Source of the DNA: a virus
Strand: one strand, 5' to 3'
DNA: 64,000 nt
IMG/VR virus record: IMGVR_UViG_3300044730_002015
Span: 1-64,000 of that record
The position numbers and the translations under genes are program-made. Below are positions 11,981 through 29,289 of the stretch, piece by piece; positions within the stretch are counted from its first letter, which is position 1; the number at the start of each line of letters is the position of its first letter. Under the pieces are notes generated by a model that was given only the letters and a program-made list of their open reading frames with translations, was not told the origin of the DNA and ran no database searches.

Positions 11981-12717
11981 CGCTCTTCCATGTAATCTTG
12001 TACCACTGGCTTGGTGTCTTGTTCCATCATCTGCTCATGCACCTGATCGATGGCTTTTTTGGCATCGGCGATGCTGGCAAATCCTGTGCCTATTTCTTTT
12101 TCATCTACTTTGACCACAAAGCCATCTGTCATGTTGCCGCAGATGTCAGCTGTTTTTTCTCCGTTGGGCCCGATTGTGACACGATCCACGGGCTTCAATG
12201 AATCCCCGCCACGATTGCTGTCTTTGCGTTTGAGATCAGTGTCAGTTTTCTTTTCTTTGGCAACTGTGTCCAAAAAGTCTTTGAGGTCTCGTGCAGAACC
12301 TTTGACCACTATGTCTTCGCCAATGGCTGATTCTGCCACAGCTGATTCATTTTTTTCACGCCCCGCACAGTGCGCACGTTGGCTAAATCCTCGAGGGTTG
12401 GCGCAGTTGATGGACTTCTTGTATTTTTCTGACCATTTTTCTGTTACAGGTTCTTGTGCTTTTTTGTTGTGCAGTTCTTGATATAATGTTTCAACCTGCT
12501 GATCTAATTCTGCAGCCTGATCCTGTTCTACCTGCGACATCTTTCTGGCCAGGGCAGTATCTTCTGCTGAGTCGCCTACCAACTTACTGGGAATTTTGCT
12601 GGCGGGATCTGTGCCGCGCAGGTATCCTACGAACTTGGGGCCGGCACCTTGATTGAGATCACCCTCGGCGATGCGCTGCAGTCGGGCTGCTATGTCGTAG
12701 ATGTCCTGATTGCTCAT
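11977..12717 (-). CDS. Virion-associated protein with Cys/His motif
   Basis: 246 residues. Residues 102-120 carry a motif with two Cys and one His (NCANPRGFSQRAHCAGR) that, from memory, recurs in structural or internal proteins of marine phages and may bind zinc. The C-terminal half holds a beta-rich VDRVTIGPNGEKTADICGNM segment. It overlaps both neighbours by ATGA (Dps-like gene upstream, 293-residue protein downstream), so stoichiometric co-expression is likely. Function unknown. Confidence 0.75.
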   Translation of the reverse strand: MSNQDIYDIAARLQRIAEGDLNQGAGPKFVGYLRGTDPASKIPSKLVGDSAEDTALARKMSQVEQDQAAELDQQVETLYQELHNKKAQEPVTEKWSEKYKKSINCANPRGFSQRAHCAGREKNESAVAESAIGEDIVVKGSARDLKDFLDTVAKEKKTDTDLKRKDSNRGGDSLKPVDRVTIGPNGEKTADICGNMTDGFVVKVDEKEIGTGFASIADAKKAIDQVHEQMMEQDTKPVVQDYMEER

Positions 12718-13154
12718 GCACGAGCTTTCTTGAGAAAGCTACGCAGCATCCAATTGTGCTTGCCGTGTGCGTCCTGGCGCTCGGCCAAGAAGTTTAGTAT
12801 GCCTTCTTGATTTTCTGCCTTGGCGCTGGCAATGGCTGCGCCAATCAGGGCCAAGAGTTTTTCATTGTCAGTTTTGAGTTCTTCGAACATGAGTTCGGCT
12901 CGGGGGATCTTGACTTGATCTTGGATAACGCTGAGTTCTTGATAGCGCGACAGTGATCCTGGTGCGTACACATCCAGCACACGGATGTATTCGGCTGCGA
13001 GATCAGTGGATTCAAAAACTTCTGTGGCTAGTTTATCAAAGAACTTGTGATACTGACTAAAGTCAGGACCTTCCACGTTCCAATGGAAACTTTTGGCCTT
13101 GAGGTAAAAAGCAAAACTGCTGGCTAATAGTTGTTTGAGATCGTCGGCTAACAT
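12714..13154 (-). CDS. Dps/ferritin-like protein
   Basis: 146 residues from ATG 13154, chosen because GAAGGA lies eight bases upstream; a longer frame has no such site. The Dps ferroxidase signature is complete and correctly spaced: H24, H36, D51, E55 (spacings 12, 15 and 4, as in E. coli H51/H63/D78/E82), with HWNVEGPDF and DLAAEYI. Dps oxidises iron with peroxide and can coat DNA as 12-mers. Here it could protect injected or packaged DNA from oxidants. It sits inside a cluster of tagged virion proteins and overlaps both neighbours. It lacks the basic N-terminal tail that E. coli Dps uses for DNA binding. Confidence 0.85.
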   Translation of the reverse strand: MLADDLKQLLASSFAFYLKAKSFHWNVEGPDFSQYHKFFDKLATEVFESTDLAAEYIRVLDVYAPGSLSRYQELSVIQDQVKIPRAELMFEELKTDNEKLLALIGAAIASAKAENQEGILNFLAERQDAHGKHNWMLRSFLKKARA

Positions 13155-13567
13155 TTGGTATCCTTCTTGGATTCTTGCATGGGCTGTATGCCCTGTTCGT
13201 GCTGGCTCAAGATATAATCCCAAACTGACACCAGATTCATTTTTGCTCCGGCGATTTTTTCCTGTACCCATTCCGGCAAGTTTTCACCGTCGGCTATGGC
13301 ATCGTGCAGCCCTTTCACTGCTCTCAGCATGGTATGCAAGTTGCTCTTGGCCATGCCTGACTCGTCGTCATACTCGCCATCGTAGTTTTCTTTGATGTTG
13401 CGTGGGGTCTTCCGTGCTTTTTTGGGTCTGCTGTTGGCATACTCGCGGCTTTTGTCGTAGACGCCTTGACCTATGGGGCCGCGTCGCTGTGTAGCGCCCA
13501 GGGGCATGGCAACCGTGGCAATACCGCCTGCAACAGTGGATTCTTCAATTATTTCTTGTAGTCGCAT
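13148..13567 (-). CDS. Tagged virion-associated helical protein
   Basis: 139 residues. It opens MRLQEIIEES (shared tag). A basic segment follows (SRPKKARKTPRN). The C-terminal helical domain (about 68-125) has ESGMAKSNLHTMLRAVKGL and LPEWVQEKIAGAKMNLVSV, a pattern familiar from many phage structural proteins of unknown role. The late box is only seven bases before the ATG. It overlaps the Dps-like gene by seven bases. Confidence 0.75.
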   Translation of the reverse strand: MRLQEIIEESTVAGGIATVAMPLGATQRRGPIGQGVYDKSREYANSRPKKARKTPRNIKENYDGEYDDESGMAKSNLHTMLRAVKGLHDAIADGENLPEWVQEKIAGAKMNLVSVWDYILSQHEQGIQPMQESKKDTKC

Positions 13568-13585: not shown

Positions 13586-13795
13586 TTAAGTGTTGCTGCG
13601 TTTCTTGCCTGATTTCATGTTAGCGCACCAATGATACATACGCCCACGCTCTCCACCGTATTTTTTAGCCCGGGCACGCAGATCTGTCACACTACCCTGG
13701 CAACTGGCACCTGCACGTTTCACTCTGCCGGGACGGCTTCGTCCTTTGACTTTCTTGTCAGCAAAGTTTTCTGTGATGAATTCATGTGCTCTCAT
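13586..13795 (-). CDS. Tagged small basic Cys protein
   Basis: 69 residues: tag MRAHEFITEN, then a very basic body with GASCQGSVTDLRARAKKYGG and MYHWCANMKSGKKR. From memory this small Cys-containing basic domain recurs in marine phages. Net charge suggests binding to packaged DNA. ATGA overlap with the upstream GNAT-like gene. A similar tag occurs on the 53-residue protein at 39813-39974. Confidence 0.75.
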   Translation of the reverse strand: MRAHEFITENFADKKVKGRSRPGRVKRAGASCQGSVTDLRARAKKYGGERGRMYHWCANMKSGKKRSNT

Positions 13796-14901
13796 CGTGC
13801 TGTGGCCACTAATCTAATGTCTCTGGCAACTTTGGCCATGTCTTTACCCTGTGCAGCTGCGGCAGGAACAGCATACATTTCTTCATCACCAGCACCGATG
13901 TTTAACACCTCGCCGGTGGCTGTGTCGTAGCCATGCACTTCAATGCCAGGCATCTGCTCCAAGCGTTGCCACACACGCTGTCCACCAGGACTTTGCTTGC
14001 GATCCGATACCAGGGTCAGTCCTAGATCAGTTATGAGCCTGCGATAAAATTCTGCTGCTGGCACGTCATTGTCGGGACTGGCATACAGGCCTGCCACTAT
14101 GAAACTGTCAGGGTTGCCAGGATAGCGGCTGCCAAACACCGTGAGTGTGGAGCGATTGGTCTCAGTGTTGAAAAGATTGTAGGTTATTTGTCCACCAAAC
14201 TGATCACGATACACGCTGTGGGTTTTGTCTATGTCTAATACCTTGCGGCCCAACAATGACATTTTTTCAGGCGAGATATTGCCGCCACGATTGGGCAGTT
14301 GATCCGGATTGGCACCTTTGCCTTTGACCTTGGAAAGTATTTTCACTTCTGTGACACCTTGTCCACTGTATTGCCGGTAAAGATCCACATACCGCTGGAC
14401 ATCTTGTTCCCAACCCCGGGGATCGCGATTCTTGTACTGTAGGCCCAAACTCATGGCATAGGCTTCTGAGGCACTGAGCCACGAACCAGGTTCCTTATGA
14501 TCGGCCATGCGGGTCAGCACTCTGCGTGTCTGTGGATCCAAGCGTTCCAGTCGGTAAGGATCCAACTGGCCTTCCGCCACACATTGTTCCCAGACATTTT
14601 TTCCAGGCTTGTGTTTGTCCCAGAAACCTGCACCGGCATCGGTCTGCTGGCCACTCCTGCGTATCTTATAACCCAGACTTTTCACATAGTCATACATGGT
14701 ACGAGCGATGCCTTGGCCACGATAGCGTTCATCCACTTCCAGATCTTGTGGCATTAACTCGCCGTCGTAGTCCACGAACAGCACCGATCCCAAGGGTCGG
14801 CCTCCTGCTGACGCTTGCACCATGATCTCATCCTCTTCTCGTTCCAGGCTCATGTCTATGCCTTGGAATGAGTCTTGGCCTATGATGTCTTGGGGCAACA
14901 T
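13792..14901 (-). CDS. GNAT-like acetyltransferase domain protein, virion-associated
   Basis: 369 residues from ATG 14901 (a TTG two codons upstream is less likely). Residues 1-10 MLPQDIIGQD fit the shared tag loosely. About 25-105 look like a GNAT fold: GSVLFVDYDGELMPQDLEV followed by the acetyl-CoA loop ERYRGQGIARTMYDYV (R/QxxGxG/A). The remaining 260 residues are two unassigned domains, the last alpha/beta with EFYRRLITDLGLTLVSDRKQ. If active and injected it could acetylate a host target. No known relative is claimed. Confidence 0.7.
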   Translation of the reverse strand: MLPQDIIGQDSFQGIDMSLEREEDEIMVQASAGGRPLGSVLFVDYDGELMPQDLEVDERYRGQGIARTMYDYVKSLGYKIRRSGQQTDAGAGFWDKHKPGKNVWEQCVAEGQLDPYRLERLDPQTRRVLTRMADHKEPGSWLSASEAYAMSLGLQYKNRDPRGWEQDVQRYVDLYRQYSGQGVTEVKILSKVKGKGANPDQLPNRGGNISPEKMSLLGRKVLDIDKTHSVYRDQFGGQITYNLFNTETNRSTLTVFGSRYPGNPDSFIVAGLYASPDNDVPAAEFYRRLITDLGLTLVSDRKQSPGGQRVWQRLEQMPGIEVHGYDTATGEVLNIGAGDEEMYAVPAAAAQGKDMAKVARDIRLVATAR

Positions 14902-14903
14902 GA

Positions 14904-15164
14904 TCAATCCAACTGACTGGCCAACTGCTGATACAAAGCCAGTTTTTTATCTACACTCATGGCCATCCAACGCTGCATCCAATCACTGTTGGGTCTTGTG
15001 CCCATGGCGTCTTTGACCAGATCGCTGATGTTCTGATTCATGGTCTGTTCCGTGGGTTCAGTGCCTTCCGCCATACCCGGCTCAGAATCTGAGCCTTCTG
15101 ACACTGCTTGTTGCTGTTGTTCGTTAAGTAGATCTAGATAGGATCTCATGAGTTCTGCTGACAT
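14904..15164 (-). CDS. Small helical protein
   Basis: 86 residues with a polyglutamine-rich helix (LLNEQQQQAVSEG), an acidic linker, and a C-terminal helical block (SDWMQRWMAMSVDKKLALYQQL). AAGGAG lies eight bases before the ATG. It ends two bases before the next start. Perhaps an adaptor or chaperone for the following gene; unknown. Confidence 0.7.
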   Translation of the reverse strand: MSAELMRSYLDLLNEQQQQAVSEGSDSEPGMAEGTEPTEQTMNQNISDLVKDAMGTRPNSDWMQRWMAMSVDKKLALYQQLASQLD

Positions 15165-15186: not shown

Positions 15187-16239
15187 CTAATCACCACGCA
15201 GGGCCTGCAACAATGCACGGGCCACCACGCGGTCTTTTTCTTTTTCCTCGTCCGCCAACTGGGCATAATCCTGTCGCATGAGTTTGGCTCGTTGGTCGAG
15301 TTTGGCTTCTAACTTACCGGCCGCACGCAGTTTTTCTGTGTCTGCGAACTGATCGGGATTTTGCACGAATGCCTGGGCAGTGACATTCCAGCCCTTGTGT
15401 ATGGCATCGCTGATGGCTTCGATGTCTGTGACTCCGGAATCGATCATCTTCTTGGCATAGGCAGCAGACTTCAAGTTGGCCTGCCAGCCAAAGGTGTTGC
15501 CGGGAGTGCTGCGACCATAACCATAGGCACGGTCCAAGGCTTCGTCACTGATCATGGCCAACTGTGCCACGGTGAGAGGCTGTGCCCGGCCTTCCGAGAC
15601 ACCTCGATCCTTGATATCTCTGTCTGCCGGCCGGAACCCCTGGTATTTTTTTGCCATAGCAGTAAAATCAACACCTTTAGATTTTGCAAAATCAGTAAAG
15701 TCTGCTCTGATTGATTTTTTAGGTAGTTCCTCAAAGCCCATTTGCAAACTCCACCCAAAGTCTTGGCGTAGTTGTTCAAGTGTTTTAGGGTCCACTGATC
15801 CTTGACGAGCCTTACCGAACTCTTTGATCAGATCTTGCAATAAATACCAATCTCTGTCAGCATCAGTTACAGGACGGGTCAAGGTCGTGGCCGGTAGTGA
15901 TTTGTCGTGTGGCTCGTAAATATCTTTCCTAACATTAAACCCTTGGTCTTCAAGTTCTTCTGCTACATGATCTCTGACCTGTGTATCCATGGCATAAAAG
16001 GCTCGGATACCTGCCTTCATGCCAGCAGACATAAATTTTCGACCGACTTTAATAATAGCGGCTGCATCAGCACCGGCGCCTTCGTCGCTGTAAGTATCTA
16101 CAAAATCTTCGCCAATTGGAATAATAGCAGTACCGTATTCAAATGGCCCGTTGCCTTCGCTGCCGCCTGGTGCGAATTCGTTCAAGCGACCTTCTCGAAC
16201 ATTCGCCTGATTTTCTGTTATGATATCTTGTATTTTCAT
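15187..16239 (-). CDS. Tagged virion-associated protein, unknown function
   Basis: 350 residues: tag MKIQDIITEN, a Gly/acidic linker, a mixed domain at about 35-130 (IIPIGEDFVDTYSDEGAGAD; MKAGIRAFYAMDTQVRDHV), and helical C-terminal parts with repeated DFTDFAKSKGVDFTAMAKKY. The last 110 residues (DEALDRAYGYGRSTP to the end) are a separate helical module. A late box lies 22 bases upstream. No catalytic motif is recognised. Confidence 0.72.
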   Translation of the reverse strand: MKIQDIITENQANVREGRLNEFAPGGSEGNGPFEYGTAIIPIGEDFVDTYSDEGAGADAAAIIKVGRKFMSAGMKAGIRAFYAMDTQVRDHVAEELEDQGFNVRKDIYEPHDKSLPATTLTRPVTDADRDWYLLQDLIKEFGKARQGSVDPKTLEQLRQDFGWSLQMGFEELPKKSIRADFTDFAKSKGVDFTAMAKKYQGFRPADRDIKDRGVSEGRAQPLTVAQLAMISDEALDRAYGYGRSTPGNTFGWQANLKSAAYAKKMIDSGVTDIEAISDAIHKGWNVTAQAFVQNPDQFADTEKLRAAGKLEAKLDQRAKLMRQDYAQLADEEKEKDRVVARALLQALRGD

Positions 16240-16871: not shown

Positions 16872-19800
16872 TTATCTCATCTCCGGTACAACTTCTAATT
16901 CCACACCTACTAGATCCGGTCTGTTGCGCCCCATCCATCCGGCGGCGAATCTATTGGCGTCGGTCTGGCTGTTGCCTATGCCACCAAATGTATGCACCAC
17001 TTCATTGGTGTTGGCATTGCGTATCTGCCACTGACCAGTGAACTCGCCTTGTGATCGTTGTGCTGCATACTGGGCGATCAATCGGTCTGCTTGTTGATTT
17101 ACATTAGGCTGGGCCTGCACGGGTTGGGCTTCGATGCTAATGACCACTCGGCCCTGTGCCGTCAATGCTGAACGCACCGAGTCCATGGCAGCATCGGCAT
17201 TGGGGGCATCAACACTGAGGCTGTCTCGTCCATAGCCATCGCTGCGTCGCTCGGTCCACTGTACTCGATATCTTTGTTGACCATTGGTACCTTGCAAACG
17301 CTGTTGCAATTGTTCGCTGTCTTTCTTGTCGTCTTTGTGCTGTTGCTGATATTGTTTTACCTCTGCGGCTGAGGCCGGTTCGGCTAGGAAACTGTCGGGA
17401 TCATTGCGGCGGAGTTCGAGCCAGTGTTTGTCTTGCCGTTCAGCTTCGGCCTTGGCCAGTGCAGTATTTTCAGCGGCCACCAGCAGGGTCCGGCCGCTGT
17501 CTGTGTCAGTGATGCGCCAGATGGTGGGACGATCCACGATCTTTTTTGCCACCTGTGCTCTACGGCTCAGCTCGGGTTCAGTTTCGGACTTTTCTCGCGT
17601 GAAGAAAGGGTAACCTTTGCCGCTGTGTCGCACCAAAGCAGTTTCGTTGGCCGATTCTAGACTCCAGTCCTTGATGGTGTCAATGACTTCACCAGTGTCG
17701 GTATTGACGACTTCATATTCTTTGGCATCAGCACGGCTGCGGGGCGGTGCTTCCTTGGCCAGGACTTGACGTGCCCATGACTTCTTGAGTTCTTCGGGTG
17801 TGATCATACCTGCGCTGTATCTAGCAAATAATTCTAGTGCATCTTTAGCACCTTCTGTTTCAACATCGGCTTTGATTTTGGTACCTTTGTCGGACCGGGA
17901 GTACTGGGTTTCACGGTATCCGCTCAAAAGTTTGTACAGTTTCTTGCCATACTCTTGGCGCTCTAGTTCAGGTCTGCTGGCTATGTACATGGCTCTAGCA
18001 AAACGCAGCATGGTATCTTCCAGTGCGCCAATCTCTTCGTCGCCTTTGGCCAGATAATCGCCGCCCGGTGAGCGGAACTCGATGTAGCCATCTTTGATGT
18101 GTGCTGAAGTGTATTTGTCGCGACCCACTCCATCTCGCACCATGTCAGCGGCTAACTCAATGAGATTCTTTTTCATGAGATCCATGGCTGCTGCTGTTTT
18201 TTCTGCGCCGGTCATGGACTGTGCATCCTGCTCACGAACTTGCTGTCTACGGCTGCGCTGCACATCCTGCAGTTTGCTCAGGGCCGAACGTGCGTAACTG
18301 TTGGCACTACGTCCAAAACGTTCCAGCACATACTGATCACCCAGGAACATTATGAGTTTGACATAGTCCACTGCACCACCCTTGAAAGGCACGCTGATGC
18401 CCATGTGTAAACCAGTTGATGAGTTGGTGTAGGCATCGCCGTCGCTGTTGGCCCAGTCTATAACAGTCTGCAGAGATTCCAGCGCCTGCTTGAGTGGCAT
18501 GGGCGGTGATACCACTTCCAGTCCTGTTTCGTCGCTGGGATCGTCGGGATCTAGGCTGCCATCGGGCTCGATGATCCAAAGACCCGGCTTTCTTGACACA
18601 CTGTGATAACCAGTGCTGCCACGCACTTGAGCATCACCGCCCAAGGCTTGGCGTAAACTGTCAGCGATGTCATCCACAGTGCGATCGCCACCGCTGCTTT
18701 CACCGCCACGCCAGTAGGGCCAGTCTAAACCAAACTCACTGCCAACGTCACTCATGTATCGATATTCTTGTTCCAACCAGTCACTTTCGTCGTAGTCGCT
18801 GGATTCGCCGACCGTGTCAAAATAATCATCTCTGGCTTGATCATAACGATCATCTTCGGTATCCACACTGGTTTCCACATCTGCCCGATACAGTTCTCTG
18901 GCCAGCGCTTCAATCTTTTCTCTCTGTTCCTCGGACTCTTCACTGGTGTCTATGCCCAGTTCTTCCGCAGCACGCTCTCTATAGTTGTCCTGCTCGTCGG
19001 GCCACACATTCTCATCATAGTAGTCGCGCACGATCTGATCTGCATTTTGGTTCCAGCCTTCGGCTATCTGTTCGCTACGCCATTCGTAGAAAGATTCCTG
19101 CATTTCTTGCCGCAATCTATTGGCAGACGATCTGCCAACACCGTTGTCGCCACCTTGGAAAAAATCCACTACCTCATCGATGCTGTAGGCACGCTCGTCC
19201 ATGTCATAGTCAGCTTCGTAGTCTTCTTCGTTGTCACCATCGCCGGCATCACGGAATATGAGCTCGGCTTCAAAGCCGGCCTGTATGCCCTCGGCTTCGT
19301 CGGAGTCGGCCCACTTTTTCAGTTCGCCTGGACTCATTTTTACTTCAAACAAATCTTCGCTGTTTTGTGATTCTGTGATGCCACGTGCCCAATCGTCGGG
19401 TGTGACGCCATATTTGGCCACCCACTGATCATGCAACTTTTGAGGTGTGATATCATATCGTCGAGATATGGTTTGCATGATCTTGTCTATGTTGTCATAG
19501 TTGGGATTTTCCAACTGTTTGACACCTTTGGCCAGATCATCCAGATACTTTTCACGCTGATAACTTTCTGCTATGTCTGTGAATATTTTGTCGTGCTGTC
19601 GGCCGTAATCAACCATGACACGTCCGGCCACGGTGTTGGCATCGGCTTCCACTCTAGCCAACTCTTGGCTGTTCATGTCGTGATGTGCCACTCCATCGAT
19701 AAACTGTTTCACGTGCTGCAGTTCATGTGTGTAGGTACGCAATACATCTGCAAGATATCTGTCGCCAACGTACACATATACTTCACTGTCATCGGCTGTG

Positions 19801-21059
19801 TTCTTCCACTGCGTGACACCAAACGTGTTGTGATCCCGGGCCCAGGATCTATCGCTGGTAAAGGTGACTGGTGGTACTTGATCGGGTTTCAGCGCCAGTG
19901 ATCTCAAGATATCGGGTATGGCACGATTGATCTCCGAACTCAAACGGCTGTCCACTCCACGGAATGTGACACGGCCTTCGGTCAATTTACCGTTGGTCCT
20001 GGCTCGGGGAGGTACACCAGCACGAGAGATTTTGAATCCCAACTGTCGAGCTGCCTTCTTTAAACTATCGGGCCGGATGTCTACTGTGAGTGCGTTGCTG
20101 AATCTGGGATCATTTCGTTCTGCTTGGGAAGGAATATAACCCGAAGCTGCTTCCTTCAAAGGCTCGTCTGCAAATCCCCAGCGAAACTCAGTCATGATTT
20201 CCATGCCTGTCACACGCTTGACCAAATCCCAGATTTCTCTCTGCTGGCCTTGCTTGATCAGTTGACCCAGCAACTTTTTCTGCTCGGCAGTGGCTTTTCG
20301 ATAAAATTCGTTCAGTTCCATGATGCCGATGTTGCCAGCATACGCAGCTTCTTCTATGCTGAGTTCATCACTCTTGGCCTGATCACGGGCCTGGATCAAT
20401 TGTCGGATCAGTCCACGATTGCGCAGTAGTTTGAACACTAGATTTTCTGCAGAAAATTCCCCGGCACGGTCCAGACCGGCTTTTCTCATGCGTTTGATTT
20501 TGTCCAGCAGCAGAGACAATTGCTCATATTGGGAATTTTCCACAGCCTGCTCTATGGCATGACCTAACTTTTTATATTTTGCCTGCACTGTGTTGTCGTC
20601 TATGGGCACTCGCTGCCTGCGCGGCATTTTCTGCCATTGGTCACGTGTGAGAGAATAAACACCAGCACTGTGATGCTGATCGGCTGCGCCTTGCACATAC
20701 AATTCCACGTCTGAATCTTTTATTTTTATATTATAGCGATCGTTGTACAGGCTTTTTTTGGCGTCAAACAATTCGCGATACACTTCATCGTTGTCCAATC
20801 GCTTCATGTCAATGATCAGGTGCAGATCAATGTCGGAATAGGGTGTGTAGGTATAACCTGCGTTGCTGCCACTGACAGTGATGTCATCTATCTGTGCGGA
20901 ATTCAATCCAAGATATTCTCTAAAATCGTCGGCTATGCGCAGCAAGGCCTGGCGTACCTCGGGTTTTATTTGATCCCCGTCAAACAATTGGGGATTGAGA
21001 TCTTGATGCAACTGCACAGCATCCTTGAGATTGTACTGTTCTAATTCCGTGATATCCAT
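16872..21059 (-). CDS. Polyvalent protein: nucleotidyltransferase, HExxH peptidase and amidoligase-like domains
   Basis: 1395 residues. (1) About 40-125: nucleotidyltransferase with GSNAGYTYTPYSDIDLHL (G64-S65, D76, D78). (2) About 320-500: zinc metallopeptidase with THELQH (H445, E446, H449) and downstream Glu471. (3) About 590-930: amidoligase-like, starting GFEAEL, interrupted by an acidic insert (about 603-780), then GLEVVSPPMPL and NSSTGLHMGIS. (4) From about 1110: three or four copies of a small beta module (YEVVNTDTGEVIDT; WRITDTDSGRTLLV; WQIRNANTNEVVHT). Chains of different enzyme domains are the hallmark of polyvalent proteins that phages and conjugative elements inject with their DNA. 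A late box lies seven bases from the start. Confidence 0.78.
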   Translation of the reverse strand: MDITELEQYNLKDAVQLHQDLNPQLFDGDQIKPEVRQALLRIADDFREYLGLNSAQIDDITVSGSNAGYTYTPYSDIDLHLIIDMKRLDNDEVYRELFDAKKSLYNDRYNIKIKDSDVELYVQGAADQHHSAGVYSLTRDQWQKMPRRQRVPIDDNTVQAKYKKLGHAIEQAVENSQYEQLSLLLDKIKRMRKAGLDRAGEFSAENLVFKLLRNRGLIRQLIQARDQAKSDELSIEEAAYAGNIGIMELNEFYRKATAEQKKLLGQLIKQGQQREIWDLVKRVTGMEIMTEFRWGFADEPLKEAASGYIPSQAERNDPRFSNALTVDIRPDSLKKAARQLGFKISRAGVPPRARTNGKLTEGRVTFRGVDSRLSSEINRAIPDILRSLALKPDQVPPVTFTSDRSWARDHNTFGVTQWKNTADDSEVYVYVGDRYLADVLRTYTHELQHVKQFIDGVAHHDMNSQELARVEADANTVAGRVMVDYGRQHDKIFTDIAESYQREKYLDDLAKGVKQLENPNYDNIDKIMQTISRRYDITPQKLHDQWVAKYGVTPDDWARGITESQNSEDLFEVKMSPGELKKWADSDEAEGIQAGFEAELIFRDAGDGDNEEDYEADYDMDERAYSIDEVVDFFQGGDNGVGRSSANRLRQEMQESFYEWRSEQIAEGWNQNADQIVRDYYDENVWPDEQDNYRERAAEELGIDTSEESEEQREKIEALARELYRADVETSVDTEDDRYDQARDDYFDTVGESSDYDESDWLEQEYRYMSDVGSEFGLDWPYWRGGESSGGDRTVDDIADSLRQALGGDAQVRGSTGYHSVSRKPGLWIIEPDGSLDPDDPSDETGLEVVSPPMPLKQALESLQTVIDWANSDGDAYTNSSTGLHMGISVPFKGGAVDYVKLIMFLGDQYVLERFGRSANSYARSALSKLQDVQRSRRQQVREQDAQSMTGAEKTAAAMDLMKKNLIELAADMVRDGVGRDKYTSAHIKDGYIEFRSPGGDYLAKGDEEIGALEDTMLRFARAMYIASRPELERQEYGKKLYKLLSGYRETQYSRSDKGTKIKADVETEGAKDALELFARYSAGMITPEELKKSWARQVLAKEAPPRSRADAKEYEVVNTDTGEVIDTIKDWSLESANETALVRHSGKGYPFFTREKSETEPELSRRAQVAKKIVDRPTIWRITDTDSGRTLLVAAENTALAKAEAERQDKHWLELRRNDPDSFLAEPASAAEVKQYQQQHKDDKKDSEQLQQRLQGTNGQQRYRVQWTERRSDGYGRDSLSVDAPNADAAMDSVRSALTAQGRVVISIEAQPVQAQPNVNQQADRLIAQYAAQRSQGEFTGQWQIRNANTNEVVHTFGGIGNSQTDANRFAAGWMGRNRPDLVGVELEVVPEMR

Positions 21060-26340: not shown

Positions 26341-27041
26341 CGTGGCTCAATACGATATGTCTTTCTTAGCAGTCCAGGGAATGACATTTCAAACAGCATC
26401 TGTATATGCGGGTTGCTGGTATCAATGAACATATTGCTGGTCATCCAGCGGCGCCGCTGCCCCGTCATACGCTGTTGTAGACTAGGGCCCAGCCTGATTT
26501 CTTGTGAGTAATTTTCGCAGAATTTTATCAGTTTTTCCACCACGGGCTCTTCCAGCCAGCGTTCTCGAAAATAGTGCCTTAATGTGTGCTCGGGATCTTT
26601 GAGTTGGATCACGTCGGGTTCATGTGTGAGTTCAGCAGTGACCAGTTTCACGTGTTGTAGCTGTTGCCAGAACTTCTGTTCCTGCAGCCGGTGATAATCA
26701 TTGGTGTAGATCTGCAGCCAGTTGTCGTACAATACCACTTTGTCCTGATCATTGGATTCCAACCAGTCCAGGCATTCGTGCAAGGCCAGCACGTCATCAG
26801 CAGAAAAACTCTTGCCGGGACGAGTACGATTACCACGCCAGGACCCACCATAATTTATGTTACGCTTGAGTATCTGATCTCTGAATTCTATGTTTTCATC
26901 CAGGGTGCTGTGATCCCTCACACGGCCCAGTCTGGGCGACCTCAGCACTGCTGCTTCAAAAAGATAAGCAGAGATACTGTAGCGATAGCGGTTGTAAAAC
27001 AGTGAACCGCGGGGTTGGGATTTAGACTCTAATAAGTCCAT
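26337..27041 (-). CDS. Conserved hypothetical protein after clpA
   Basis: 234 residues, basic and rich in Arg, Trp and Tyr. Segments such as GSLFYNRYRYSISAYLFEA, WLQIYTNDYHRLQEQ and HYFRERWLEEP give an alpha/beta pattern with many aromatics. No signature motif. The N-terminal 20 bases overlap the clpA 3' end, so it is read after the chaperone genes. It may be a late structural protein or a ClpA accessory factor; neither is supported by motif. Confidence 0.7.
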   Translation of the reverse strand: MDLLESKSQPRGSLFYNRYRYSISAYLFEAAVLRSPRLGRVRDHSTLDENIEFRDQILKRNINYGGSWRGNRTRPGKSFSADDVLALHECLDWLESNDQDKVVLYDNWLQIYTNDYHRLQEQKFWQQLQHVKLVTAELTHEPDVIQLKDPEHTLRHYFRERWLEEPVVEKLIKFCENYSQEIRLGPSLQQRMTGQRRRWMTSNMFIDTSNPHIQMLFEMSFPGLLRKTYRIEPR

Positions 27042-29289
27042 TGGTATCCACAGATCCTATCAAGTTGCTGGTAATGTCAAAGGTCACAGAATCTCCAACA
27101 TAATCGGCCATGATTTCACAGTTCATGAGATCATCAAACAGGATCTTGCGGCTAAGCGGCACACGAACTAGTTCATCGATTTTGCGGCTCAAGGGTCTAG
27201 CACCCATTTTGGCATCATAGCCTTTGTCTGCCAGGTGATCGATCAAGGCTTCCGAGAAGTTGATGCGAATGTTTTTGGGAGCCATGGCCTGTTGCAGTTG
27301 CTTGAGGAATTTCAGCACGATACGCTTGATGGCCAGGGTATCCAGTTTCTGGAATTTACATATGGCATCAATACGATTGCGTATCTCGGGTTTGAAATAG
27401 TCTTTGAGTGCGCGATCTTCTTCACCGGATTTGGCCAAGGCCACCCCAAAGCCAATGGCATTGTTGTCATTGTCTCTGGCACCCAGGTTGCTGGTCATGA
27501 TGATGATGGTATTTTTACAAGACACTTTCTTGCCATTGCTGCCAGTCACAGTGCCTTCGTCCAGCATCTGTAGCAAGATGTTGGAAACATCGGGGTGCGC
27601 TTTTTCTATTTCGTCAAACAAGATCACTGAATAGGGACTCTTGCTGAGATCATTGATGAGTTTGCCACCACCTAAACTGTGATCTTCATAGCCCACATAT
27701 CCCGGAGGCGCTCCAATTAGTGTTGAGAGATTGTGCTTCTCTTGGAATTCGCTCATGTCATAGCGCAACAGTTTCATATCCAGCGCGTCACTAAGTGCCT
27801 TGGCCAGTTCAGTTTTTCCTGTGCCTGTGGGTCCAAGGAACAGGAACGATGCCAAGGGCCTGGTATCAACATTGATGCCGGCAAAGGAAACAAATATGCG
27901 ATCGATCACAGGGTCTATCACTTGATCTTGTCCAAACAGCCGATCTTTCACTGTGTCTGCCAAACGCTTGATCTTGTCTGTGGTCTTGCTGGCCAGTTTG
28001 TCTCGCGGTATGTCAGTGAACTTGGCGCAGGCAGTGATGATATCTTCACGCACCACCACAGCACCTTCGGCATCGTTCACACGATAACCAGCGCAGGCGG
28101 CATCCAACAGGTCAATGCTTTTGTCGGGATTTTTACGATCAGTGATATAACGATCGCTGAGTTCTACCGCGGCCTTCACAGCATCTCTGTCGATCTGCAC
28201 TGAGTGGAATGTTTCCAGTCTGGGCTGCAGGCCTGTCAAGATATTTTCCGTGTGCTCAATGCTGGGTTCGTCTATGGCCACTTTGTAGAATCTACGCATG
28301 AGTGCGCGATCCTTTTCAAATGACTCATAGTATTCTTCCCAGGTGGTACAGGCGATGACCTTCAAGTTTCCTTTGGTGATGGCAGGCTTGATCATGTTGG
28401 CCAGATCCATGCTGGAGTTATTGGCAGCGCCAGCGCCTTTCATGGCGTGTGCTTCGTCAATGAACAAAATGCAGTTGTCCTTGGCTGCCAAGGCACCGAG
28501 AACGGCCTTGACTTTTTCTTCAAAGTCTCCGCGATATTTGCTGCCTGCCAACACATCCGCAATGCTCATAGACCACACTTCGTGATTCTGCACAAACTTG
28601 GGCACTTCGCCTGCGATCACAGCCTGTGCCAGGCCTTCCACGATGGCAGTTTTGCCCACACCGGGATCGCCCACCAGCAACACATTTGATTTGAAACGCT
28701 TGGCCAGCACAGTGATCATTTCTTTGAGTTCTGTGGCGCGACCTATCACGGGTTCATACTTGCCGGCTTCGGCCAGTGCTGTCATGTTGATGCAGTACTC
28801 TTCTAATATTTCTGTGGCTTGCTTTTTGCCCAGTTTAGGTTCACGCTGTTTGTGATGGTGACTCTGCCAGTATTCTACAAATTCTTGTTTGTTTAAACCG
28901 TACTTGCAGAAGAAATAGTGTGCGTGGCTGTTGTTTTCACTCATGATCGACAGATACAGATCGATGGGTATCAAGAACCTGCGATTGCTAAACACCACCT
29001 GTGTCACAGCGCGATTGATCATGCGCTCGAGACCATTGGTCTTTTTGGGTACGAACTCTTCAGGATCAACAGATTCCAACTCTAGATTTTTCATGGCCTG
29101 CAGATAAGCTTCGATGTCGGCATCCAGGCTTTCAATGTCTACACCAAAGTTCTGCACCTGATTGCGGAATTCGTGATTGCGTATCAGTGCCAGGCTCACG
29201 TGCTCCAAGGTAACATATTCGTGACGCATATCAATGGCCAAGTCTCGGGCCATGTCAATGATGCTTTCCACTTCGGGGTTATACTGCAT
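27022..29289 (-). CDS. clpA: ClpA-type AAA+ unfoldase
   Basis: 755 residues, the size of E. coli ClpA. An N-domain (1-140) contains EHVSLALI. AAA module 1 has Walker A GDPGVGKT (207-214) and FIDEAH (276-281); module 2 has GPTGTGKT (486-493) and LFDEIEKAH. A tripeptide Ile-Gly-Phe at 612-614 sits exactly where E. coli ClpA has its IGL ClpP-docking loop, just before the LKDYFKPEIRNRID segment. That suggests the phage enzyme can dock on host ClpP and redirect proteolysis. It forms an operon with dnaJ and def, overlapping def by 11 bases. Confidence 0.92.
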   Translation of the reverse strand: MQYNPEVESIIDMARDLAIDMRHEYVTLEHVSLALIRNHEFRNQVQNFGVDIESLDADIEAYLQAMKNLELESVDPEEFVPKKTNGLERMINRAVTQVVFSNRRFLIPIDLYLSIMSENNSHAHYFFCKYGLNKQEFVEYWQSHHHKQREPKLGKKQATEILEEYCINMTALAEAGKYEPVIGRATELKEMITVLAKRFKSNVLLVGDPGVGKTAIVEGLAQAVIAGEVPKFVQNHEVWSMSIADVLAGSKYRGDFEEKVKAVLGALAAKDNCILFIDEAHAMKGAGAANNSSMDLANMIKPAITKGNLKVIACTTWEEYYESFEKDRALMRRFYKVAIDEPSIEHTENILTGLQPRLETFHSVQIDRDAVKAAVELSDRYITDRKNPDKSIDLLDAACAGYRVNDAEGAVVVREDIITACAKFTDIPRDKLASKTTDKIKRLADTVKDRLFGQDQVIDPVIDRIFVSFAGINVDTRPLASFLFLGPTGTGKTELAKALSDALDMKLLRYDMSEFQEKHNLSTLIGAPPGYVGYEDHSLGGGKLINDLSKSPYSVILFDEIEKAHPDVSNILLQMLDEGTVTGSNGKKVSCKNTIIIMTSNLGARDNDNNAIGFGVALAKSGEEDRALKDYFKPEIRNRIDAICKFQKLDTLAIKRIVLKFLKQLQQAMAPKNIRINFSEALIDHLADKGYDAKMGARPLSRKIDELVRVPLSRKILFDDLMNCEIMADYVGDSVTFDITSNLIGSVDTNGLIRV

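Follow-up and report, generated by a model that had tools for sequence, protein, structure and literature searches.

Positions 16872-21059 of a 64,000-nucleotide stretch of virus DNA (the window; positions 1 to 64,000 of IMG/VR record IMGVR_UViG_3300044730_002015, which has 169,524 bases) form one uninterrupted open reading frame (ORF), from ATG to stop, on the minus strand; read on the plus strand, these positions are full of stops. Along its length the product, P0001, has a Pol-beta nucleotidyltransferase (NTase), a metallopeptidase predicted from HExxH...E (zincin), an amidoligase interrupted by an acidic insert of helices, and four ββαβ modules as its tail (Table 1). We propose that P0001 is packaged in the phage head and cut there at its domain borders. 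The initial annotation of this DNA had described a chain of 1395 residues with three enzyme types, which is confirmed, but on the minus strand. It had also classed the chain as a polyvalent protein; at least two domains of disparate activity are present in the polypeptide, and Pfam matches and conservation bear out three domains.

P0001 belongs to a recurrent family. Its nearest orthologues (92% identity) come from environmental virus contigs no longer than 59 kb; a more distant one (55%) comes from a contig of 119 kb. With an amidoligase alignment as query, 72 loci were identified in viruses, several of them lying on contigs of more than 300 kb. Uncultivated T4-superfamily jumbo phages have the order NTase-zincin-amidoligase at 40 loci, of which about 28 are non-redundant, the complete three-enzyme proteins spanning roughly 1250-2080 amino acids; with at least 28 non-redundant relatives of identical domain order, the ORF and its motifs are not due to chance. 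At other loci the amidoligase stands alone behind a leader of 10-18 residues. The three-enzyme order is absent from the 50,697 phage records searched, where no single place accounts for over 17% of P0001 and the parts occur only apart, as stand-alone NTases (cyanophages, Cr30, Maribacter), a zincin (S-SRM01) and an amidoligase (Atu_ph07). The amidoligase pattern matched 114 times in genomes of bacteria and archaea, and none of these matches was confirmed as a relative. The initial annotation knew of no description of this combination, which is thus recurrent in jumbo phages and not a singleton.

The family-B DNA polymerase of the source record is nearest to those of Sinorhizobium phage Phosso, Agrobacterium phage Atu_ph07 and Rak2-like jumbo phages. 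The head genes gp21 and gp23 were sought in the whole record and no head genes were found; we therefore take the record to be partial, and the full genome is probably larger.

The NTase motif of P0001 comprises G64-S65...D76-I77-D78-L79-H80 with E119 as the third acid, residues that are conserved in distant relatives. Pfam NTP_transf_2 is matched by 30/31 relatives (best E-value 6e-6), and a fold search with the NTase half returns AadA, AAD(9), MNT and CdnD (best E-value 4e-3; probability 1.00 for MNT). The G-S...D-x-D motif, the third acid and the fold are those of Pol-beta NTases. It is similar to AadA/AAD(9), to the MNT antitoxin and to the CD-NTases; by analogy, this half is likely to act by moving a nucleotide onto a protein or a small molecule. 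Phage NTases of PHROG 36119 (cyanophages, Cr30, Maribacter, Lak) belong to the same family, at 30-37% identity; they are stand-alone proteins of about 235-265 amino acids in the records inspected, whereas the NTase of P0001 is fused. The small helical module that follows it also occurs in two relatives (L126 and L156), after an MRAxxxxxE leader and before the amidoligase.

The putative zincin is recognised by its motif and its conservation, which make it a candidate peptidase. H445, E446, H449 and the likely third zinc ligand E471 are invariant in 31 sequences, in keeping with the peptidase expected to be embedded in a polyvalent protein. A stand-alone homologue is found in Synechococcus phage S-SRM01. 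The SGYIP(S) module that precedes it in P0001 follows the zincin in L007 and other relatives, again with x-x-E directly before it. One relative (L108, 5125-8385) is an NTase-zincin polyprotein enclosing a module that looks kinase-like by eye, as does a module at L027:10475-11056; the motifs are GEGRDQIA / GKGQDQDAY and DLHGGN...DP, and there is no Pfam match.

The amidoligase matches Amidoligase_2 (PF12224) with an E-value of 3e-9 and 37.4 bits (curated cut-off 22), as do 39/40 relatives, and viral amidoligase models match P0001 at 2.6e-48, a clear match within the viral library. The catalytic-type residues E597, E599, E831, D833, E848, H885, R917, E994 and R996 are invariant in one alignment and, like those of the NTase and the zincin, are conserved over a wide divergence. 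The acidic insert is shorter in stand-alone relatives. A sequence search against solved structures gave no useful relative. The nearest amidoligase relative found in a cultured phage, Atu_ph07 gp196 (AUZ94978.1, Amidoligase_2), shares the amidoligase core and catalytic residues with P0001 (30% identity over 41% of the segment), but is a stand-alone protein of 500 amino acids without NTase or zincin. Three or four amidoligase paralogues can lie in tandem in one phage (L065, L069, L070 and L057), and most of them have a leader and an L-x-E of their own. The tail shows Foldseek similarity over 53 residues to a ribosomal-protein chain of H. marismortui (4v9f_6; probability 0.99, TMt 0.69), and as modelled its ββαβ modules possibly bind nucleic acid.

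Much of what the initial annotation read from the letters survives. Its NTase motif (GS...DID) is upheld by the conserved motif and E119, the NTP_transf_2 matches and the fold matches to AadA, MNT and CdnD; the split amidoligase agrees with PF12224 above its cut-off and with the helical insert in the AlphaFold2 model, and the tail of three or four small beta modules has four in that model. The HELQH zinc peptidase is upheld in its invariant motif and E471, and the Pfam matches to it are weak. The fold search that had been proposed as a check finds the NTase and, through the viral models, a clear amidoligase; against the PDB the amidoligase half gives weak YbdK/GS (GCS2) matches, and no zincin is among the 50 matches listed, a list that the NTase dominates. 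The roles suggested for the enzymes, to counter host defences and to act on peptidoglycan, are guesses, and nothing was found to support the peptidoglycan reading. PADLOC gave a single marginal match, which was disregarded.

The domains of P0001 are bordered by a short motif. The prohead protease of T4, gp21, cuts after L/I-X-E (PMC9026906), and in T4 Alt the cuts fall at ITE-6 and LTE-619 (PMC5694885). We scored 1057 aligned column triples for the fraction of sequences with L/I-x-E. The three highest are amino acids 235-237 (1.00), 3-5 (0.97) and 570-572 (0.93), which are the end of the NTase, its start and the start of the amidoligase, each with a variable middle residue. In the N-terminal alignment the next best triple reaches 0.40. 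In the C-terminal alignment the next best reach 0.72, in the strand that carries catalytic E831, and 0.68. At the first site, I/L-x-E occupies positions 3-5 in 97% of 31 rows and in 35/36 N-termini, and P0001 is thereby predicted to have a T4-type N-terminal propeptide ending in L/I-x-E. At the second the middle residue (P2) has an entropy of 2.5 bits. At the fourth, L-x-E is present in 57/57 amidoligase proteins, fused or stand-alone, when anchored on the following motif. The predicted local distance difference test score (pLDDT) of the model is below 50 at amino acids 234-243 and 565-571, and E5 and E572 are at the edge of their low-pLDDT segments.

The same motif is found where modules are joined inside other chains. 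The first 60 residues after each leader were used as queries against internal copies of the modules, the leader's own motif being excluded. Directly before the internal module start, [LIVF]-x-E is present in 152/216 cases, while other offsets mostly give 0-15 and at most 20 (about 2% at most of them). For alignments that start at query residue 1-2 it is 145/180; a first version of the test gave 114/226. These internal junctions retain x-x-E and lose the R-A-x-E-F targeting part of the leader, which is consistent with what is expected if cutting, and not targeting, is needed inside a chain.

The T4 capsid-targeting sequence (CTS) is the first 10 residues of IPIII (PMC9026906). Leaders such as MRAQEFITE begin 129/986 genes around amidoligase genes, where 0.9 are expected from shuffled N-termini. 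CTS-like leaders are found on 60/157 genes downstream of the three-enzyme gene, on 0/147 upstream and on 0/93 in head structural regions, and 21/25 loci have such a gene within five genes after the three-enzyme gene. As far as sequence tells, this is the pattern of T4 capsid-targeting sequences. The cluster in the window itself has at least two such leaders, a third recognised by eye, and one GNAT gene (Table 1). Among tagged mosaic proteins elsewhere, L039:10528-12330 matches ART-PolyVal below the curated cut-off, and L049:12767-13708 has GNAT domains above it, possibly in two copies.

A protease of the required kind is present in relatives. The gp21-type Peptidase_S77 (PF03420) is found above its cut-off in 9/12 long relatives, five of which carry the three-enzyme gene, and their gp20-gp21-gp22-gp23 clusters look T4-type by order and size. 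In the head regions of relatives (L181-L186) the major capsid proteins share an N-terminal segment in which a variable L-x-E immediately precedes N/S-SAGST; this is probably where the propeptide is cut and, as predicted from sequence, is consistent with the same cutting rule. In these head regions a 72-amino-acid gene after the portal gene starts with a leader-like sequence.

From the domains, active-site residues, border motifs, leader cassette and the gp21 of relatives, all read in sequence, we infer packaging, cutting, injection and substrates for P0001. We consider it likely that P0001 is a capsid-packaged polyprotein of injected enzymes, cut by the prohead protease, and the lead gene of an internal-head-protein cassette in T4-superfamily jumbo phages. 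It is then probably not one working protein, given the prohead-protease-type sites predicted at its domain borders. The chain would be made late and incorporated into the prohead core. A gp21-type protease would cut after L/I-x-E at E5, which would remove five residues from the start much as happens in T4 Alt, at E237, probably at E303, and at E572, to give an NTase of about 27 kDa, a small helical piece of about 8 kDa, a zincin of about 31 kDa and an amidoligase with tail of about 93 kDa. DNA would be packed around these pieces, which would go into the host with it; injection is supported by the genomic context, a predicted CTS-like cassette in which some proteins are acetyltransferase- or ADP-ribosyltransferase-like. 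In the host the NTase may attach a nucleotide to a protein or small molecule in the manner of MNT and AadA enzymes, the zincin may cut host proteins and the amidoligase may make amide bonds on peptides or proteins.

More broadly, and with a little over even confidence, we suggest that T4-superfamily jumbo phages have a general, modular payload system. Its effector domains (NTase, zincin, amidoligase, acetyltransferase, ADP-ribosyltransferase-like and others) would be exchanged like beads, with a prohead-protease mark in front of each one, and would travel either alone with a capsid-targeting leader or strung in a polyprotein that the protease cuts within the head.

The polyprotein might instead be cut from within, the L/I-x-E motifs being recognition sites of its own zincin. 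A zincin is present in the chain, and release of domains by embedded peptidases has been proposed for polyvalent proteins (PMC5512222). We regard self-cutting as quite unlikely: L/I-x-E also precedes amidoligases that stand alone and numerous small proteins of the cassette, none of them with a zincin, L-x-E is found at the capsid propeptide as well, and the mark matches the specificity known for gp21 (PMC9026906). An uncut chain, injected whole and acting as one protein, with x-x-E as fusion scars or parts of the folds, would have company in a class of injected multi-enzyme proteins (PMC5512222). It also appears unlikely: the outer residues of the motif (P3 and P1) are conserved and P2 is free at three unrelated borders, the sites are in low-confidence linkers, and internal junctions drop the targeting residues and keep x-x-E. 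A known multi-enzyme injected protein is DarB of phage P1.

That P0001 is an early or late intracellular enzyme, never packaged, and serves host takeover or tail and cell-wall biology seems very improbable to us. Cytidylyltransferase, ClpA-like and glycosyltransferase-like genes are nearby, and stand-alone cyanophage NTases sit among replication genes; set against this are the capsid-targeting-type leader genes that so regularly follow the three-enzyme gene, and the place of gp196 in Atu_ph07, two genes from the portal gene and inside a cluster rich in virion proteins (coding sequences 170-215). The main text of the Atu_ph07 paper (PMC6102473) does not state detection of gp196 in virions.

Several observations count against packaging and cutting by the prohead protease. 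P0001 does not have the IPIII-type leader (M-K/R-x-x-E-F) of its downstream neighbours, and with gp21 and gp23 not found in the 169-kb record the protease is taken from relatives. The motif is missing at about 30% of internal module starts, and the conserved x-x-E could partly be remnants of leaders left by gene fusion, though its middle residue drifts freely. Bare L/I-x-E motifs are not enriched in P0001, with 14 against 13.8 expected in shuffles; we therefore rejected their number as evidence by itself and argue for cut sites from position and conservation.

Table 1. Features of P0001 and of genes downstream of it (window positions; aa, amino acids)
Feature	Position	Strand	Basis
Whole coding sequence, NTase-zincin-amidoligase polyprotein P0001, 1395 aa	16872..21059	-	orthologues at 92% and 55% identity
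Predicted prohead-protease site 1, I3-T4-E5, cut after E5	21045..21053	-	I/L-x-E conserved at aa 3-5
NTase domain, aa 6-237 (GSN...DIDLH, E119; C-terminal part helical)	20349..21044	-	PHROG 36119, E-value 4e-43
Predicted site 2, I235-E236-E237, end of NTase	20349..20357	-	L/I-x-E in 31/31 rows
Small helical module, aa 238-303 (GNIGIMELNEF...)	20151..20348	-	same module in L126/L156
Candidate site 3, L301-K302-E303, before SGYIPS module	20151..20159	-	x-x-E before module in relatives; pLDDT <50
SGYIPS module, aa 304-385, mobile within family	19905..20150	-	position differs among relatives
Zincin-like metallopeptidase (candidate), aa 386-500	19560..19904	-	conservation; weak Pfam M78/DUF6782/DUF3920 matches
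HELQH zinc motif, aa 445-449	19713..19727	-	H445, E446, H449 invariant
E471, likely third zinc ligand	19647..19649	-	invariant
Small helical module, aa 506-560 (YDNIDKIMQ...LHDQWVAKYGVTPDDW)	19380..19544	-	PHROG 10346; in several cyanophage proteins
Predicted site 4, L570-F571-E572, directly before amidoligase	19344..19352	-	L-x-E conserved
Amidoligase domain, aa 573-1110 (GFEAEL, EPDGS, GLEVVSPP, STGLHMG, YIEFRSPGGDYL)	17730..19343	-	PF12224, viral models
Acidic helical insert in amidoligase, about aa 643-765	18765..19133	-	long helical segment, AlphaFold2 model (helices 79-188 of model segment)
C-terminal tail, aa 1111-1395, four ββαβ modules	16875..17729	-	AlphaFold2 model secondary structure
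Downstream gene, CTS-like leader MKIQDIITE	15187..16239	-	leader scan
GNAT acetyltransferase gene, same downstream cluster	13792..14907	-	Acetyltransf_1, E-value 1e-4, above cut-off
69-aa basic protein, leader MRAHEFITE then NFADKKVKGRSRPGRVKRAG	13586..13795	-	same module fused in C-terminal part of L044
139-aa protein, CTS-like leader MRLQEIIEE	13148..13567	-	by eye; not in automatic leader count

The 60-amino-acid basic module of the 69-residue protein (NFADGKVKGKSRPGRVKRAG...YHWCANMKSGKK), seen also in L044, is widespread; it forms a tagged protein by itself or lies at the C-terminus of a longer one or close to it, and it is possibly DNA-binding. Genes for a ClpA/B-like AAA ATPase (27022-29289) and a ferritin/Dps-like DNA-binding protein (12714-13271) are also nearby in the window.

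If our reading is correct, polyvalent injected proteins and T4-style capsid targeting and prohead cutting would be joined in one system, and CTS-based packaging could extend from single cargos to several cut from one chain. A rule of sequence (a leader, or an L/I-x-E border, followed by a module) would flag those effector domains that jumbo phages inject, the majority of which at present carry the annotation hypothetical. Because it predicts the mature ends exactly, the rule can be tested by mass spectrometry.

Polyvalent proteins were defined by Iyer et al. in 2017, who suggested that embedded peptidases release their domains (PMC5512222). Like P0001 they carry disparate enzyme domains, including zincin and Pol-beta NTase, in one chain and are predicted to be transferred with DNA. 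The text of that paper does not mention amidoligases, whereas P0001 has one; most of its NTases come from mobile elements of firmicutes and are fused to ArdC-N, whereas P0001 is from T4-superfamily jumbo phages and has prohead-protease-type sites at its borders in place of the proposed release by an embedded peptidase. In the jumbo phages phiKZ and SPN3US the prohead protease processes many packaged and ejected proteins (PMC5694885, PMC9026906), cutting ejected proteins at S/A-x-E (PMC9026906). These phages are of another lineage and have another motif (S/A-x-E or A-x-E), and the excerpts of the two papers report no string of enzymes with sites between them. Nor did we find, in the portions of the open-access literature covered, any description of a polyprotein whose enzymes are separated by prohead sites. 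The T4 internal head proteins Alt and IPI-IPIII, which are CTS-tagged and cut by gp21, have a short N-terminal propeptide ending in L/I-x-E, as is predicted for P0001; genes downstream of P0001 have leaders like that of IPIII, and long relatives have a gp21 homologue. Each of these T4 proteins is one unit and is trimmed at its ends, whereas P0001 is several joined enzymes with the motif at each border.

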